Virus record (IMG/VR): IMGVR_UViG_3300045283_000159
Location: 1-57,683 of that record
Direction: 5' to 3' (one strand)
Origin: a virus
Length of the DNA stretch: 57,683 nt
Shown here: positions 3,654 to 42,600 of the stretch, in pieces
Layout: the number at the start of each line of letters is the position of its first letter
Position numbering within the stretch: the stretch's first letter is position 1
Notes under the pieces: generated by a model
The model's input: only the letters and a program-made list of their open reading frames with translations
Told to the model about the DNA's origin: nothing
Databases searched by the model: none
Translations under genes and position numbers: made by a program

Positions 3654-3895
3654 CCGCCCAGCCTGGCGAGCAGCACGTCAAGCCGGGCCAGCAGGTCATC
3701 GAGCTTGCGGCACGGCCGCAGCTCGGTCCCGCTCCTGCTGCCGGCCGCGTCCTCGATCCACGCCCGCCAGAGCTCCCCGGCACGCCAGATGCTCACTTCA
3801 GGGTGCGCGCGCTCATACTCGGCGGCCGCGGCTCCGAGCTGTCTGCTGATCCCCTCCATGACCGCAGGGTAAAACACCACGAAACCCGGCGTCAT
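3650..3895 (-). CDS. Hypothetical protein, possibly DNA-associated
   Basis: 81 residues from ATG 3895, which overlaps the HNH stop as ATGA. A Trp-rich central helix (SIWRAGELWRAWIEDAAG) is followed by a Leu-rich C-terminal helix (LDDLLARLDVLLARLGG) that could form a coiled coil. No family recognised. Translationally coupled to the HNH endonuclease gene. Confidence 0.6.
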   Translation of the reverse strand: MTPGFVVFYPAVMEGISRQLGAAAAEYERAHPEVSIWRAGELWRAWIEDAAGSRSGTELRPCRKLDDLLARLDVLLARLGG

Positions 3896-4563
3896 CCAGC
3901 CAGCGGGCCGCTCTCGTCGATATCGAACAGTTCCGTCTGGACAAGCTTGGCGGTAAGGCATGTCGCGACCTTGGCGTTCGCCACCCTCAAACGCGCCGCC
4001 GCGCGCTCCATCCGGTCGGGGTTATCCCCGAACATCGCGACGCCAACGTTGCAGCGCGCGCACGCGAGGCCGCGAATGCACCGGCCGCACGACGTATTGC
4101 CCGGGCAGCACGAGTGATCATGGTCAACGTGGATGTTGCGCTTATTTTCAAGATCTACGGGCTCGCTGCAGAGATAGCAAAGGCCGCCCTGCTCGGCGAG
4201 TAGCCGACTCCACTGATCAGCGGAGAGCCCGTATTTCCGTTTGAGCGTATAGTCAAACGCCTGGGCAGGAGTACGAGCATCTTTCTTCCCCTGGGCGCGG
4301 CGTTTTGCTGAGTACTGACGCGACTGCTCCCGGGACTTCTCGGGATTAGCCGCACGCCAGCGTCGCCGCTGGATGCGGTTGGCCTCATTGAGTCGATCGC
4401 GGTTCGCTTCCCGGTAGCGGCGCTTGTATTCCAGCTGTCGCTGCTTTACCTCCTCTGGGGCGTTCGCCCGGGACCGGCGCTCGTATCCGCTCTGCTTCTC
4501 CCGGTTTGCCCCACGCCAGCGACGCTCGTATTCGCGCCGCTTCTCGGGATCTTTGCGTGGCAC
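3892..4563 (-). CDS. HNH endonuclease, recombination endonuclease VII family
   Basis: 223 residues, GTG start at 4563. The N-terminal about 95 residues are basic repeats of the form (R/Y)REANR, seen in free-standing homing enzymes of this family. The C-terminal half has the endonuclease VII core: LLAEQGGLCYLC, the HVDHDHSC His-Asp-His motif, and RGLACARCNVGVAMFGDNPD, giving two Cys pairs for zinc plus the catalytic His and Asn. The downstream gene is coupled by ATGA. Related in architecture to the HNH at 38996-39664. Likely a mobile homing-type nuclease; DNA junction cleavage is the family's known activity. Confidence 0.85.
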   Translation of the reverse strand: MPRKDPEKRREYERRWRGANREKQSGYERRSRANAPEEVKQRQLEYKRRYREANRDRLNEANRIQRRRWRAANPEKSREQSRQYSAKRRAQGKKDARTPAQAFDYTLKRKYGLSADQWSRLLAEQGGLCYLCSEPVDLENKRNIHVDHDHSCCPGNTSCGRCIRGLACARCNVGVAMFGDNPDRMERAAARLRVANAKVATCLTAKLVQTELFDIDESGPLAG

Positions 4564-4569
4564 GACAGG

Positions 4570-5292
4570 TCATGCCTGCGGTTCGCGCTGCAGCTCGTCC
4601 AGGTACTGGCGCACAGCCTCATACATGTCCGGCATCAGGTCCCGCGTCTCGTCGATGCTGGCCCACCGGACCTCTTCCAGATCCTCCGGGTCACCGTTCA
4701 GCGGATCGCCCGGTCCTGCCTCGACGTGGCAGTACACCATGACTCGTGAGGTCTTCGGATGGATCCGGCGGCCGATGAACCGGACCGACTGCGCCTCCAG
4801 GCCGCTCTCGGCCCGGACCCGGCGGCGCAGCGCCCCGGCCGGCGACTCGCCTTCATGGATGTCGCCGCCCAGGAACGTCCACGGCGGGATGCCGTCGCGG
4901 CGCTTGGCGATGAGGACCCGCAGGTCCGGCGATGTGATGATGGCCAGCCCGACGTGGGGCTGCTCGGGGAGGGTGGCTGGTTCGGTCACGGGATTTCCCT
5001 TCTCTCGTGCGCGTGCGATGATCTGGCTGACCCGCGCCCTGGACACGCCCATGAACTCCGCCAGCTCGTCATGCGTGAGGCTGTGGGCGTCGGCCATGTA
5101 GGCGGCGAGCCAGCCGCGGAAGTCCGCGGTCTGGGTGCGCATCGTCTCGACGAGTTCGGTGAGGGCCTTGGCGGCTTCCCATGCCTCAGCCGTGTTCGGC
5201 CAGACCTGGATCGCGGTGGTGGCCCGGTAGAAAGCCTCGCGCATGTGCGTCATCTCGCCGCCCGGAGTGTCGCCCTTTATGTAACCCGTCAT
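4570..5292 (-). CDS. HTH-Nudix protein with degenerate Nudix box (Pif-like candidate)
   Basis: 240 residues. An HTH of sigma-70 region 4 type lies near residues 71-96 (DELAEFMGVSRARVSQIIAR), followed by a Nudix domain from about 112. The Nudix box GX5EX7REUXEEXGU is present as G143, E149, R157-R158-V, A161-E162-S-G164-L. Two of the consensus Glu residues are Arg158 and Ala161, so hydrolase activity may be weak or lost. HTH-Nudix proteins are common beside AICE transfer genes, and pSAM2 Pif, a transfer immunity factor, carries a Nudix motif. That link is by context, not by alignment. It is divergent from the TraB-like operon, which suits control of transfer. Confidence 0.75.
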   Translation of the reverse strand: MTGYIKGDTPGGEMTHMREAFYRATTAIQVWPNTAEAWEAAKALTELVETMRTQTADFRGWLAAYMADAHSLTHDELAEFMGVSRARVSQIIARAREKGNPVTEPATLPEQPHVGLAIITSPDLRVLIAKRRDGIPPWTFLGGDIHEGESPAGALRRRVRAESGLEAQSVRFIGRRIHPKTSRVMVYCHVEAGPGDPLNGDPEDLEEVRWASIDETRDLMPDMYEAVRQYLDELQREPQA

Positions 5293-5682: not shown

Positions 5683-7725
5683 ATGACCGAGCATGAGATC
5701 CCCGAGTCGCGGGCGCAGGTCGTCCAGCTCCGCGCGGTGGACGCGCAGACCGAGGTAGCGCTGGACGAGGGCAGGCCGCCCGGCCCCGCCTACGTCGACC
5801 TGACCGGCGCCGAGGCGAAGCGCCGCGCGATCATCCCCGAGCACTGGCGCACCCGGGAGAACGCGAAACGCCATGTCGCCCTCGCCGCCGCCCGGCACGG
5901 CCACCGCGCCGCCTACCACGGCGTCCGCTCGCCCGGCTACCTGGTCAAGGCCGCCGGCTACGCGGTCCGCGGCGTGTTCGTCACCGCCGGGCACCTGATC
6001 TCCTGGTGGCACATCCCGGGGACGTCCAGCCTGGAACATCAGGCCGCGGCGGACGGGCTGCTGAACGACCACCTGCGGCTGCACAAGGCCGCGAAGGAGA
6101 CCCGCAAGGCCCGCGGCACGATCCTCGCCGCCGCCGCCGTGGCGGCGTTCATCGCGGCTGACGCCATGGTCCTGCTCGCGCCGTGGTGGGGATGGGCCCT
6201 GCTCGCCGTCGTCCTGTTCACCGCCGCGGCGCTGGCGGGCCGGCCGCAGGGCAAGACCATCACGACGAAGGCGGAGCTGCCCGCGCAGGTGCAGCCGCCG
6301 ACCCAGGACGTCATCACCCGGGCGCTCGGGTCGATCGGCATCCCCGGCATCAGCCAGGCCATCCGCAACGGCGAGCCGCTCAGCTTCCCGTCCCCCGTGC
6401 GGGAGGACGGCCCCGGCTGGCGGTTCGACTGCGACCTGCCCTACGGCGTCACCGCCACGCAGGTCATCGAGCGGCGCGAGCAGTTCGCGTCCGGGCTGCG
6501 GCGCCCGCTCGGCGCGGTGTGGCCGGAGGTGGCCGCGCACGAGCACGCCGGCCGCCTCGAATGCTGGGTCGGCAAGACGGACATCTCCAAGGCGAAGCCG
6601 GCGCCGTGGCCGTGGCTGCGGACGGGCGGCGGGGACGTGTTCGGGCCGCTGCCGTTCGGCACCGACCCGCGCGGACGCCGGGTCGACGGGCACGTGATCG
6701 AGCACAACTGGCTGCTGGGTTCCATGCCCGGCCAGGGCAAGACGTCGGCCCTGCGGGTGCTGGCCGGCGCCGCCGCGCTCGACCCGACGTGCGAGCTGTG
6801 GATCTGCGAACTGAAGGGCACCGGGGACCTCGACCCGTTCGAGCGGGTCTGTCACCGGTTCGTCTCCGGCATCGACGACGACTCCATCGCGTACGCGGCG
6901 GAGTCGCTGAAGAAGCTCCGCGCCGAGGTGACGGCCCGCGCCGACCGGCTCAAGAAGCTGCCCCGCGAGCTGTGCCCGGACAGGAAGATCACCCGGCAGA
7001 TCGCGAACCGCCGCGGCCTGAAGCTGCATCCGCTGGGGTGCTTCATCGACGAGTGCCAGAACCTGTTCGCCCACCCGAAGTTCGGCAAGCAGGCCGCCGA
7101 GGACGCCATCTTCATCATCAAGATCGGCCGGGCGCTGGGCGTGTTCCTGATCCTGGCCACCCAGCGCCCGGACAGGGACTCGCTGCCGACCGGGGTGTCC
7201 GGGAACGTGTCGACGCGGTTCTGCCTGAAGGTCGCCGGCCAGGTCGAGAACGACATGATCCTGGGCACCAGCGCGTACAAGAACGGGGCCCGCGCTACGA
7301 CGTTCCGGCCGAAGATCGACGCGGGCCTGGGCTACCTGAAGGGCGAGGAGGACGTGCCCCGGGTGGTGCGGACGTACTACCTGAACGGCCACGACGCCGA
7401 GCGGGTCGCCCGGCGGGCGCGGGCGCTGCGCGAGGCGGCCGGGACGCTGACCGGCGTCGCCGCCGGCGAGGACGACGAGGCGGAGCGCCGCGACGTGCTG
7501 GCCGACGTGCTGGACGTGTTCGCGGGCGACGCAGGGCTGCAGTGGCAGGTGCTGGCCGCCCGGCTCGCCATGCGGTTCCCCGAGCGGTGGGATGACGCGT
7601 CGGCCGACGCGGTGTCCGCCGAGCTGCGGGCCCGCGGCGTGCCGAGCGTGAACGTGAAGGCGGACGGGCAGGTGGCCCGCGGCTGCCGCCTGGCCGCCGT
7701 CGAGGCCGCGGCGGAGCCGGCGTGA
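5683..7725 (+). CDS. traB: FtsK/SpoIIIE-type DNA translocase, TraB-like
   Basis: 680 residues from ATG 5683 (GTG 5680 also possible). Two adjacent membrane segments lie at about residues 146-187. The cytoplasmic motor has Walker A GSMPGQGKT at 346-354 and Walker B GCFIDE at 452-457, then a RecA-like core with 'ILATQRPDRDSLPTGVSGN'. The last about 75 residues (LQWQVLAARLAMRFP...VNVKADGQVARGCR) match the winged-helix end of actinomycete conjugative TraB proteins, which reads 8-bp repeats in clt and moves double-stranded DNA between hyphae. The C-terminus is followed at once by an octamer cluster (7736-7843). Membrane-anchored hexameric pump is the expected form. A chromosomal FtsK is unlikely because the long N-terminal membrane region and linker are absent. 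The gene symbol is by similarity of architecture. Confidence 0.85.
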   Translation: MTEHEIPESRAQVVQLRAVDAQTEVALDEGRPPGPAYVDLTGAEAKRRAIIPEHWRTRENAKRHVALAAARHGHRAAYHGVRSPGYLVKAAGYAVRGVFVTAGHLISWWHIPGTSSLEHQAAADGLLNDHLRLHKAAKETRKARGTILAAAAVAAFIAADAMVLLAPWWGWALLAVVLFTAAALAGRPQGKTITTKAELPAQVQPPTQDVITRALGSIGIPGISQAIRNGEPLSFPSPVREDGPGWRFDCDLPYGVTATQVIERREQFASGLRRPLGAVWPEVAAHEHAGRLECWVGKTDISKAKPAPWPWLRTGGGDVFGPLPFGTDPRGRRVDGHVIEHNWLLGSMPGQGKTSALRVLAGAAALDPTCELWICELKGTGDLDPFERVCHRFVSGIDDDSIAYAAESLKKLRAEVTARADRLKKLPRELCPDRKITRQIANRRGLKLHPLGCFIDECQNLFAHPKFGKQAAEDAIFIIKIGRALGVFLILATQRPDRDSLPTGVSGNVSTRFCLKVAGQVENDMILGTSAYKNGARATTFRPKIDAGLGYLKGEEDVPRVVRTYYLNGHDAERVARRARALREAAGTLTGVAAGEDDEAERRDVLADVLDVFAGDAGLQWQVLAARLAMRFPERWDDASADAVSAELRARGVPSVNVKADGQVARGCRLAAVEAAAEPA

Positions 7726-7735
7726 CCCCCCGCGA

Positions 7736-7843
7736 GGGTAGCGCCGCCGCTACCGCCCCTGACCTGCGCGGACGAGGGCTGCCCGCTACCGCCGCTACCG
7801 GGCCGCCCGCCGTGACCTGCGCGGTAGCGGGTAGCGCCGCCGC
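7736..7843. other. Octamer cluster, candidate clt locus for the TraB-like translocase
   Basis: Six copies of (C/G)GGTAGCG lie in 101 bp: forward at 7736-7743, 7822-7829 and 7829-7836; reverse (CGCTACCG) at 7748-7755, 7784-7791 and 7793-7800. The first two form a perfect inverted repeat with a 4-bp gap. A 15-bp direct repeat (gggtagcgccgccgc at 7736 and 7829) and a 12-bp one (tgacctgcgcgg at 7760 and 7813) overlay this. The stretch is non-coding, begins 10 bp after the translocase stop, and resembles the TraB recognition sequences of Streptomyces plasmids in size and position, though with a different octamer. Confidence 0.7.
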
Positions 7844-7870
7844 ACGTCAGATGACGGAGGAAACGGCCCC

Positions 7871-8071
7871 ATGGCCCTGCTGCCGGGCGCGCGGGATGAG
7901 CACCGCTACCAGCTCTGCCAGGACGAGTTCTGCGACCGGTTCCCCTGCCGCCTGTACAAGGAAGGCCGGGGCGACGGCGAGCAGTACGGCTATCAGCGCG
8001 GCCACGCCGAGGGGTACGCGGAGGGGTTCGGCGACGGCCTGGAGTCGTGTCCGGGCCCGCATGGCGGGTGA
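7871..8071 (+). CDS. Hypothetical small protein of the transfer operon
   Basis: 66 residues, ATG 7871 with a strong ACGGAGGAAAC ribosome site. It has CQDEFCDRFPC near residues 17-27 and a Gly/Tyr/Glu repeat (YGYQRGHAEGYAEGFGDG). First gene after the octamer cluster. Family not recognised, though small proteins of this type occur beside AICE translocases. Confidence 0.65.
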   Translation: MALLPGARDEHRYQLCQDEFCDRFPCRLYKEGRGDGEQYGYQRGHAEGYAEGFGDGLESCPGPHGG

Positions 8072-8759: not shown

Positions 8760-9208
8760 GACGGCCGGAGAGCACGCAGAACCGGGGCCTGCTGGCGGGG
8801 TTCAGCCCGCTGGCGGGTGTCTCGGCGGGCACTGCGCTGGTGCTGTTCGCGTTCGGGGTGCTGTGCCTGGCCTGGCATCAGGTGTCGGGGCACGTGTCGC
8901 TGGCCATCACCATGCTGGCCTACGCGGTGATCGCCGCCCTGGCCGTGGTCACCGGCGCCGGAACGTGGCTGGTCGTGCTATGGGTCGCGCACCGTCACCG
9001 TAACCCGGAGCTGCTGGTGCGGCAGGTGGTCCGGGCCGAGGTCGTCGACCCGGCCGCGCCGCCGGCCATCGCCGCTGCGCAGCCTGCCGCGATCGAGCCG
9101 CCCCGCGTCTACCTGAACGTCACACCGGACCAGCTCGCAACTCTTGTGCGGCAGCAGGTTACAGACACGCAACTACCCCGCGACAACCATGACCAGGGGA
9201 CAGCATGA
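8756..9208 (+). CDS. Two-helix membrane protein, Spd-like candidate
   Basis: 150 residues. Two membrane segments (about 21-39 and 47-72) are followed by a soluble C-terminal domain of about 75 residues ending in a helical region (NVTPDQLATLVRQQV). Position between the TraB-like gene and the DUF2637 gene, with ATGA overlaps at both ends, fits the spread (Spd) genes of actinomycete conjugative elements. The family assignment rests on context and topology only. Confidence 0.6.
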   Translation: MRRPESTQNRGLLAGFSPLAGVSAGTALVLFAFGVLCLAWHQVSGHVSLAITMLAYAVIAALAVVTGAGTWLVVLWVAHRHRNPELLVRQVVRAEVVDPAAPPAIAAAQPAAIEPPRVYLNVTPDQLATLVRQQVTDTQLPRDNHDQGTA

Positions 9209-9897
9209 CAACCATGAAACTCCCAGCCTGGACCCGCCGCATCCGTGACCGGCTGCGCCCGTCCGCGCCCGCGCCCGCGCCCGTCCGCGGTGACAAGGCG
9301 TTCGCTTTCGTCACCCTGGCCGTGGTCGCGGCGGTGGCCGTCATCGCGTTCTCCGCGTCGTACCAGCACCAGTACGAGCTGTCCATCTACTACCGGCAGA
9401 CTCACTGGGTGGCGGGCATGATGCCGTTCTCTGTTGACCTGCTCATCGTGGCGGCGGGCCTGGTGATCTGGTATGCGGCCCGGCACGGCTATCCGCGTCC
9501 CCTGCGGGCGTATGCGGCGCTGTCGGCCGGGGTGGCTGCGACGGTGATCGCGAACCTCGCCGCGGATCATCATTACGCCTGGCCGTGGCTCGGCCCGGGG
9601 ATCAGCGTGTGGCCCGCGATCGCTTTCGTCGGCGCGTACGAGATGGCGGTGTGGCTGGTCCGCAAGCGGCAGGAGACGGCAGCCGGGGCGGAGGGCGGCG
9701 GCACGGTTCCGTCGCCCGGTTTCAGCGACGCCGAAACCGCGGCGCTGGCGTCTTTGAGGGCGACACTGGCGGCGGGGAACCCGTGGTCGCAGAATCAGCT
9801 TCAGGACCGGTTCGGCCTGTCCCGTGCGGAGGCGGCGAAAGTGCGTAAGCGGGTGCTGGCCGGATCCAACGGGCACGACGCAGGGAGCCAGCCGTGA
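9205..9897 (+). CDS. DUF2637 membrane protein with C-terminal HTH
   Basis: 230 residues. About residues 30-160 have four hydrophobic segments in the DUF2637 pattern (FSASYQHQYELSIYYRQTHW, SVDLLIVAAGLVIW, then AFVGAYEMAVWLV). Residues about 175-220 form a helix-turn-helix-like C-terminus (NQLQDRFGLSRAEAAKVRKR). DUF2637 proteins are frequent in actinomycete conjugative elements and are thought to act with transfer or spread genes. ATGA overlap with the previous membrane gene and GTGA with the next place it inside the transfer operon. Confidence 0.8.
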   Translation: MTTMKLPAWTRRIRDRLRPSAPAPAPVRGDKAFAFVTLAVVAAVAVIAFSASYQHQYELSIYYRQTHWVAGMMPFSVDLLIVAAGLVIWYAARHGYPRPLRAYAALSAGVAATVIANLAADHHYAWPWLGPGISVWPAIAFVGAYEMAVWLVRKRQETAAGAEGGGTVPSPGFSDAETAALASLRATLAAGNPWSQNQLQDRFGLSRAEAAKVRKRVLAGSNGHDAGSQP

Positions 9898-39671: not shown

Positions 39672-42600
39672 GTGGCCACCCAGTCGATCACCTATGAGTT
39701 TCTGAGCCGGGGCGCTGCGTCACTAGCTCGTGACTTCAGGTCAACGGGCGACAGTGCTTCGGCCGCGGCGCGGGGCGCGGCGGTCCTCCAGAAAGTCATC
39801 GCCGACCTGGGGCAGAAGGAGAACCGCACCGCGGCGGAGTCGGTGGCCCTAGCGAAGGCGCTGCGGCTGACCGGCGACGCGGAGGACCGGGCCGCCGCGA
39901 AGGCCCTGGCGGCTGACATCGCGATCCGCCGCCTCGACGACGCGCTGAAGGACTCGTCCAAGAGCACGGGCGGCGCCAGGGCGGGGTTCGCGAGCCTGGC
40001 CGGGGAGGTCACCGGGTTCGGCGCCGCCTCCGACGCGGCGACCAGCGGGGGAAACAAGTTCAAGCTGGCCCTGGCCGGGCTGAACCTCGCCTCCGGGGTC
40101 CTCGAGCCCGCGCTGGCCGGGGTCGTGGTCGCCGCAGGCGGCCTCGCGGCGGCGTTCTCTGCCGCCGGGGCCGGGGTCATCGCCTACCAGGTCGCGCTGA
40201 AGCCGCTGCTGTCCCAGACCACCGACGTGATGAAGGCCCAGGCGGCGCTGGACAAGGCGCAGGCCACGGCGCAGGCGAATTACGCGGCGGCCATCAAGTC
40301 CGGGGTGAGCGCCAAGACCGCGGACGCGGCGCGGACCAAGGCGATGACCGCGGCGCAGCAGCAGTACAACCTGGCCGTCGCGGCCGCCCCCGCGCCGGTC
40401 CGCGAATTCGCCAGGGCGGTGGAAGACACCAAGTCCGGCTACACCGCGTGGGCCGATTCCCTCGCCCGGCCCGTGCTGAGCCCCCTGTCGACGGCGCTGA
40501 AAATAGTCGAGCCCGCGCTGAAGGCGATCACGCCGCTGGTGCGGGTCACGGCCGGCGCGTTCGGGATGCTGGTCACCGAGATATCCAGGAAGGTCGACGC
40601 GGGCGGCCTGACGTCCGTCGTGACCACGGTGCTGCCGCACGTGCGGGACACGATCCTCGACCTCGGGCACGCGGCGGGGAACGTGGCCGCCGGGATCTGG
40701 GGCATCCTCAAGGCGTTCATGCCGGTGTCCGGGCAGATCACCGCCGGGGTCGTCAAGCTGACCGCCAAGTTCAAGGAGTGGGGCCAGTCCCTGTCCGGCG
40801 GCACCGGGTTCCAGTCGCTGATGACCACGTTCCGCACCGAGACGCCGCAGGCCATGGCGATCCTGACGAACCTCGGCACGGTGATCACCAACGTCGGCAA
40901 GGCGATGTTCGGCCTCTCCTCGTTCAGCAATTCCCGGCTGCTGCTGTCCGCGCTGCTGCCCCTGTCCGGGGTGATGGCCAGCCTGAGCAAGAACACGGAC
41001 CTCGTGCGGATAGCGATGTACGCGCTGCTCGCGGTGAAGATCGGGCAGCAGTTCTCCTGGGTCACCGACGCGTGGAAGGGGATCGTCAAGTTCGCCGCCG
41101 CCGCAGAGGGCGCGACGGTCGCGGAGACCATCGCCGCCGCCGCGACGAGGGCGTGGGGGCTGGCGATGACCGCGCTGCCGTGGGTCGCGCTCGCCACCGC
41201 CGTCGTCGCCGTCGCGCTGCTGATCATCAAGTACCACCAGCAGATCTGGACGTTCATCCAGAAGGTGTGGCACGACATCCTCGCCGTGATCATGGGCGTG
41301 TGGAACTGGGTCAGGACGAACTGGCCGCTGCTGCTCGGCATCATCACCGGGCCGATCGGCCTGGCGATCTTGTGGGTCGTCCAGCACTTCGGCGAGATCA
41401 CCACTGCGGTCAAGGCGGTGCTGAACGCCGTGCAGACCGCGTGGAACGCCGTGTGGGGCGCGATCAGGGCCGCGTTCGCCGTGTTCATCTCCGCCGGGAT
41501 CATCGCCCCGTTCAATACGATCACCGGCGCCATCAGGACGGTCCTGTCCGCCGTGTCGTCGGCGTGGAATAACACGTGGAACACGCTGAAAGCCGCGTTC
41601 CGGATCTTCGTCGTCGACGGGGTGCTGGGCCCGCTCGGCCTGATCATCAACGGGGCGGCGAAGGCGTTCAGCTGGGTTCCCCTCGTCGGCGACAAGCTGA
41701 AGGGCGCGGCGGCGGCGTTCAACACGTTCCGGGCTAACGTCAACTCGTCGCTCGGCGGGATCAACGGCCGGACCGTCAACGTCTCCGTCGCCATGACGTC
41801 CGCGACCAACCCGTACGGCGGGATCACCCCGAAAACAGCCCGCGGCTGGCTGGTATCCGGCGGGACGCCCGGCAGGGACAGCGTGCCGATCCTGGCCATG
41901 CCGGGCGAGCTGGTGGTACCCACGCACATCGTCCGGGCCGGGGCGGTCGACCACCTGCGCGGCCGGATCCCCGGGTTCGCGGCGGGCGGCGTGGTCGGCG
42001 CTCCCGGCACGGGCGTGGTCGTCGCCCCGCACACCCCGACCGTCGCGCAGGTCCAGTCGACGCTGATGGCCAGCGTCATGAAACTCGCCGTGGTGTTCGC
42101 GAAAGCCGCGCAGGCCGCCGCGAAGGCGGCCGCGGGAGGGGCCGGGACGCCAGGTCCGGGCGGCGGCGCCCCCGGCGCGAACGCCGCGCTGGCCCGCCGG
42201 CTGATGCCCTCCTGGGGCAGCGGCGCCGAATGGAACGCGTGGAACTACCTGGAAATGCGGGAGGCGGGCTGGAACCAGTTCGCCCGCAACCCGTCATCGG
42301 GCGCGTACGGCATCCCGCAGGCGCTACCACCCGGGAAGATGGGTGCTGCGGCGAACCCGCCGCAGTCCAACCCCACCGCGCAGATCCGCTGGATGATCGG
42401 CTACATCCAGAGCCGGTACGGCGATCCGATCGCGGCGGCCGCCCATGAGCGGGCGTTCAACTGGTACGGCGGCGGCCTGGATGCCATGTTCACCCGGCCG
42501 ACACTAATCGGCGTCGGCGAGCGCGGCCCCGAGCACGTCCAGGTCACACCCGGCGGCGGCGGGGGCGGGGACCTCGGCGCCAAGCTGGACCGGCTCATCG

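Follow-up and report, generated by a model that had tools for sequence, protein, structure and literature searches.

A repeat cluster behind a TraB-like translocase gene in a tailed temperate phage as a probable clt-like locus with a candidate specificity code

What is the role of a compact cluster of short repeats that lies directly behind a TraB-like translocase gene in a virus genome? The window analysed here is the whole 57,683-nucleotide stretch of IMG/VR record IMGVR_UViG_3300045283_000159. In the original prediction, its cluster was described as six (C/G)GGTAGCG octamers, three per orientation, and was regarded as a candidate recognition sequence of the TraB-like protein. When the window was searched, six exact copies of GGTAGCG were located at 7737 (+), 7748 (-), 7784 (-), 7793 (-), 7823 (+) and 7830 (+). 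Each strand carries three, together they span 7737-7836, and as octamers they occupy 7736-7836 just as described. The translocase gene stops with TGA at 7723-7725, the first octamer begins 10 bp further on, and the intergenic stretch ends at the next likely gene (start at 7871, preceded by GGAGGAA), which bears out the claim of a non-coding stretch beginning 10 bp past the stop. The 15-bp repeat GGGTAGCGCCGCCGC occurs exactly at 7736-7750 and again at 7829-7843. When the repeat region was scanned for Rfam families, promoters and terminators, no match was obtained.

Table 1 Features of the repeat locus and of its surroundings in the window
Feature	Position	Strand	Remark
TraB-like FtsK/SpoIIIE-family DNA translocase, 681 aa	5680..7725	+	
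C-terminal winged helix, residues 606-678, predicted DNA reader	7495..7713	+	AlphaFold2 model
Arg667 codon, wing	7678..7680	+	alignment column tracks base after TAG core
Whole clt-like intergenic locus, translocase to next gene, 145 bp	7726..7870	no strand	
Repeat 1, GGGTAGCG	7736..7743	+	
Repeat 2, CGGTAGCG	7748..7755	-	
Constant box 1, TGACCTGCGCGG, core TGACCTGCG	7760..7771	+	
Repeat 3, CGGTAGCG	7784..7791	-	
Repeat 4, CGGTAGCG	7793..7800	-	
Constant box 2, TGACCTGCGCGG	7813..7824	+	53 bp after box 1; runs into repeats 5 and 6
Repeat 5, CGGTAGCG	7822..7829	+	
Repeat 6, GGGTAGCG	7829..7836	+	direct repeat, 7 bp after repeat 5
Small Cys-containing ORF, 66 aa, directly downstream of locus	7871..8071	+	
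DUF2637 membrane protein (Spd-like)	9205..9897	+	Pfam E 3e-12

In the whole window GGTAGCG was counted 15 times against 7.8 expected. The nine copies outside the cluster were considered background because the whole-window count is near expectation. The original prediction had called these other copies isolated, and they do occur at the background rate, but its list was incomplete (the copies at 1496, 4413, 18863, 39167 and 42322 were missing). Nowhere in the window are copies of a 7-mer packed more densely than in the cluster, and its six copies within 110 bp are unmatched by any other 7-mer. When the whole window was shuffled 60 times with its dinucleotides preserved, the maximum was 3-4 copies of any 7-mer per 110 bp. 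An equal density of the octamer elsewhere, which would have spoken against a specific site, was therefore not observed. Next in density among the 7-mer clusters was that of CGTCACG (five copies within 110 bp around 54046), which lies inside the integrase ORF.

The translocase contains two predicted N-terminal membrane segments from about residue 146 (hydropathy peaks at 146-188), a P-loop (PGQGKTS) near residue 350 and a Walker B motif (FIDEC) near residue 457. The Pfam FtsK_SpoIIIE match was weak and below the cut-off. Using tblastn, 32.6 % identity to pSVH1 TraB was found over residues 239-618, the motor (E-value 2e-32), and homologues were observed in actinobacterial plasmids. The C-terminal domain was modelled by AlphaFold2 as a winged helix, with pLDDT of about 90 or more over most of the domain and residue 667 in the second wing strand. 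A Foldseek search with this domain gave largely winged-helix proteins as the best matches, all weak (E > 0.03), and FtsK-gamma was not singled out. The window thus holds several features of a TraB/clt module, namely a TraB-homologous FtsK-type motor with membrane segments and a C-terminal winged helix, and at least four repeats of 7-9 bp in non-coding DNA beside tra (six in the window). In FtsK-gamma/KOPS and SpoIIIE/SRS, a short G-rich octamer is recognised by a winged helix at the C-terminal end of an FtsK-type motor. KOPS are scattered along the chromosome with a polarity, whereas the sites in the window form a compact cluster in two orientations.

As a single query, the window translocase gave no match in viral or genome contigs, and an alignment of four homologues was used instead, yielding 80 genome loci and 32 virus loci. 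The relatives share 35-68 % identity with the translocase, are found in actinobacterial genomes, plasmids and phage contigs, and mostly have a repeat cluster of their own in the corresponding position, in most cases starting about 10 bp past the translocase stop. When the 160 bp after the stop were examined by 7-mer count, a cluster at shuffle p ≤ 0.01 was observed in 71 of 113 related loci. This count is crude and misses diverged or short sites, and for this reason many phage loci look cluster-negative; some relatives show no evident cluster by it. The repeat sequences vary by lineage (GGTAACG, CTAGAGG, GATAGCG, AAGCG, CGACACG and others). Many Streptomyces elements carry GCTACCGGTAGC, Nonomuraea and Actinomadura carry CCTCTAG-NN-CTAGAGG, one Kitasatospora carries GCTATCGATAGC and one Frankia GCTTGCGCAAGC. 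The nearest kin of the window (translocase identity 67-68 %) have GGTAACG. L163, L164 and L116 represent a further specificity class: they have CGAAACC/GGTTTCG palindromes as sites, and Lys occupies the code position described below or one close to it. In the positive control, pSVH1, five of the seven GACCCGGA copies lie within about 115 bp past the traB stop; these repeats are the TraB sites defined by experiment. The check for conserved repeats in related elements was thus passed, since most relatives, and pSVH1, carry clusters at the same place while the sequence diverges.

The original prediction had both a 15-bp and a 12-bp repeat overlying the octamers. This was found for the 15-bp repeat, which is exact in both copies, but the 12-bp repeats (TGACCTGCGCGG) are, as judged by comparison of the loci, a separate conserved element distinct from the octamers. 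A looser box (TGAYCWG, forward strand, 170 bp after the stop) was present at 96 of 187 loci (51 %), redundant ones included, versus 7.9 % of control windows. Two copies stand 53-54 bp apart in the window, L087, L096 and L102. In the window, box 2 is followed by two direct half-sites, TGACCTGCG-CGGTAGCG-GGTAGCG, and the box and the first site share junction bases. The TGACCTGCG box was also located beside the repeats of pSVH1 (L196:6991), in the korB-adjacent region of pIJ101 (L204:6887), beside repeats in several plasmids, and in other TraB families. It was absent beside several distant TraB relatives, including L208, L210 and L220. No description of the box was found in the titles and abstracts of papers that combine the string with Streptomyces, which concerned unrelated subjects; the primary clt papers lay outside this search.

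The locus was compared with known systems. pSVH1 of Streptomyces venezuelae resembles the window in its homologous TraB motor, in five 8-bp repeats from about 15 bp past the traB stop, in a TGACCTGCG box that follows the repeats and in a nearby SpdB2 gene. It differs in being a rolling-circle conjugative plasmid, whereas the window is a phage, and in its TRS, GACCCGGA, so the statement that the known pSVH1 octamer is different was correct. In the literature cited in PMC3583192, recognition by pSVH1 TraB is credited to helix alpha-3, whereas the strongest specificity signal in the family of the window is in the wing. In pIJ101, whose clt was mapped to the korB-adjacent region (PMC3583192), a TGACCTGCG box is likewise followed by tandem sites, GTTGCAAGGTTGCG, and this box-plus-sites module (TGACCTGCGAAGTTGCAAGGTTGCG), similar to that of the window, adjoins korB; the plasmid is of the rolling-circle type, its repeat is another one and its clt is not directly beside tra. 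pWTY27, compared by its published description only, has 7-bp repeats directly behind its tra gene as in the window, but it is a theta plasmid with another repeat: its clt consists of four TGACACC copies directly after the single tra gene and was footprinted by TraA (PMC3583192). AICEs share the translocase family, DUF2637, a small zinc-binding gene and repeats past the tra stop, but they have Rep or prim-pol genes where the window has head and tail genes.

When the repeats were compared with the C-terminal domains, the base after the TAG core was found to follow the residue aligned to Arg667 of the window. Co-variation was tested over translocase columns only, and the p-values assume exchangeable branches and are a ranking device rather than exact probabilities. 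In the hand-labelled test, on a tree built from motor residues 200-600 only, 10 of 11 base changes fell on branches with a change in column 667 (11 changes in all; p = 6e-15), and the next best of 716 columns had p = 1e-4. An automatic label rule matched every hand label within its coverage. In the automated test of 107 non-redundant loci, newly fetched genomes included, 10 of 10 base changes were shared with column 667 (p = 2.5e-14), the best of 787 columns, followed by a column at 7e-8. In the held-out set, all 26 loci with Arg had C, and all 5 with Ile, Gln, Asn, Val or Ala had A or G (Fisher p = 3e-5); C was also seen at one locus whose residue is apparently Lys. The pattern was first spotted by eye and then tested, a circumstance that automatic labelling and held-out loci make up for only in part.

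The automatic tests require head-to-head palindromes, which dominate in chromosomal relatives. The window and its nearest phage kin are without tight head-to-head palindromes and were included only in the hand-labelled test; because of this, most of the evidence in the tests of 85 and of 107 loci comes from chromosomal cousins. Exceptions to the code were L095 (Tyr, TAGC), L105 (Arg, TAGA) and L184 (apparent Lys, TAGC). The pair in the window, Arg667 and TAGC, is as the code demands. Weaker signals than that of column 667 were obtained for the base before TAG (best columns 663-664, in the wing) and for the dinucleotide at the palindrome centre, whose best column is also in the wing (a Trp/Tyr/gap position).

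There is thus a cluster at a conserved position, its sequence changes between lineages, and it co-varies with the translocase at the level of a residue. From sequence comparison, we conclude that it is very probably the cis-acting recognition locus (clt) of the adjacent TraB-like dsDNA translocase. The prediction of a TraB recognition sequence thereby gained support from the pSVH1-like position and copy number, the repeats of the relatives and the co-variation with the wing residue. The system would be a variant of TraB/clt with a putatively readable specificity code. In the proposed mechanism, the winged helix of each subunit would read one GGTAGCG half-site, and Arg667 in the wing would specify the C after the TAG core. 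The sites in both orientations, together with the two TGACCTGCG boxes 53 bp apart, would direct the loading of a hexamer on the DNA of the element itself, and the loaded DNA would be pumped through a membrane pore. Physical binding, this loading, and a movement of the phage (or its excised circle) between hyphae or compartments are what we infer from these patterns.

The element that carries the locus is a tailed temperate phage of actinobacteria, a context that was not available to the original prediction. It is classed as a tailed temperate phage because terminase, portal, protease, capsid, tape measure, tail and integrase genes, as well as a DNA methyltransferase gene, are present between 16467 and 57216. 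The head genes lie downstream of the translocase and the DUF2637 (Spd-like) gene is near it; this family is often beside traB in plasmids and AICEs, and small zinc-binding genes are near several related translocases. A prim-pol search of the window gave no match, and a DUF3631 search was uninformative as its controls were silent. An AICE would have a plasmid-type replication gene (RepSA, RepAM or prim-pol) beside integrase and tra; in the window, phage structural genes were found instead. The combination of translocase and phage genes recurs, since a portal match was observed in 13 of the 32 virus contigs with a related translocase (L088, L093-L095, L099, L101-L103, L106, L108, L112, L114 and L117; two of the 13 matches were below the family cut-off). 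Phages with TraB-like modules may, on this evidence, form a recurring class. In PHROGs, such phage FtsK-like proteins are classed as morons.

Some other features of the window were recorded. On the minus strand just upstream of the translocase, 4570-5292 encodes a sigma-70 region 4-like helix-turn-helix fused to a NUDIX domain, and 3892-4563, also on the minus strand, a recombination endonuclease VII-type protein. A tRNA-Arg (CCG) was predicted at 39993-40077 within the tape measure gene and is probably a false positive.

Other explanations of the repeats were considered. A chance or dispersed genomic repeat, to which the nine further GGTAGCG copies in the window might point, has a negligible probability: the background is near expectation, the cluster exceeds every shuffle, and the shuffles and the co-variation together refute it. 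The repeats could also belong to a replication origin and act as iterons for a Rep or prim-pol protein from a neighbouring gene. Several relatives have a bifunctional primase/polymerase among the next genes, and direct and inverted repeats occur in the iterons of theta plasmids such as pWTY27, but in pWTY27 the iteron and clt are at separate places (PMC3583192). We regard iterons as very unlikely, given that the repeat tracks one translocase residue, that the window has no prim-pol match, and that a similar site stands beside traB in rolling-circle pSVH1 and near korB in pIJ101, the repeats following the translocase across replication types. Inverted 7-mer clusters are typical of operators, and conjugation genes are tightly regulated. 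On this general knowledge, the repeats might be operators for a repressor of the translocase or downstream genes, with a coincidental link to the translocase. However, the site lies after the translocase gene and not before it, no promoter-like or terminator-like match was obtained, and the co-variation with the translocase wing emerged over 787 columns (translocase columns only), so operators are given hardly any credence. Both the origin and the operator explanations are weaker because neither explains why the repeat follows one wing residue.

It is quite possible, if not the reading we would favour, that the translocase reads the site as proposed but that its use by the phage is non-conjugative (spreading the prophage through mycelial septa, partitioning it into spores or controlling superinfection). 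The tailed-phage nature of the carrier and its integrase, the portal matches, the moron class and the Spd-like DUF2637 gene fit such a use. On the other hand, conjugative plasmids and AICEs have this same module, and a phage-specific partner is not known. As this explanation overlaps with that of a clt, the confidences given here do not add up to one.

In actinobacteria, only a few plasmids are known to conjugate by means of a single protein. According to a 2022 paper, even pSAM2, the archetypal AICE, still had no described clt (PMC9513070). With a clt as the preferred explanation, the docking site appears to be readable from sequence in many elements, a residue in the wing may account for its specificity, and classical clt regions and phages were found to share a TGACCTGCG box. 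More tentatively, and with some doubt, we suggest a class of temperate tailed actinophages with a complete TraB/clt module that would spread in two ways, as virions and by hypha-to-hypha pumping of dsDNA, the DNA bearing a private address that is recognised through a simple amino-acid code. The finding would enable prediction of which elements can mobilise each other, the code could be put to the test with point mutations in laboratory plasmids, and the question arises of what use phages make of the module.
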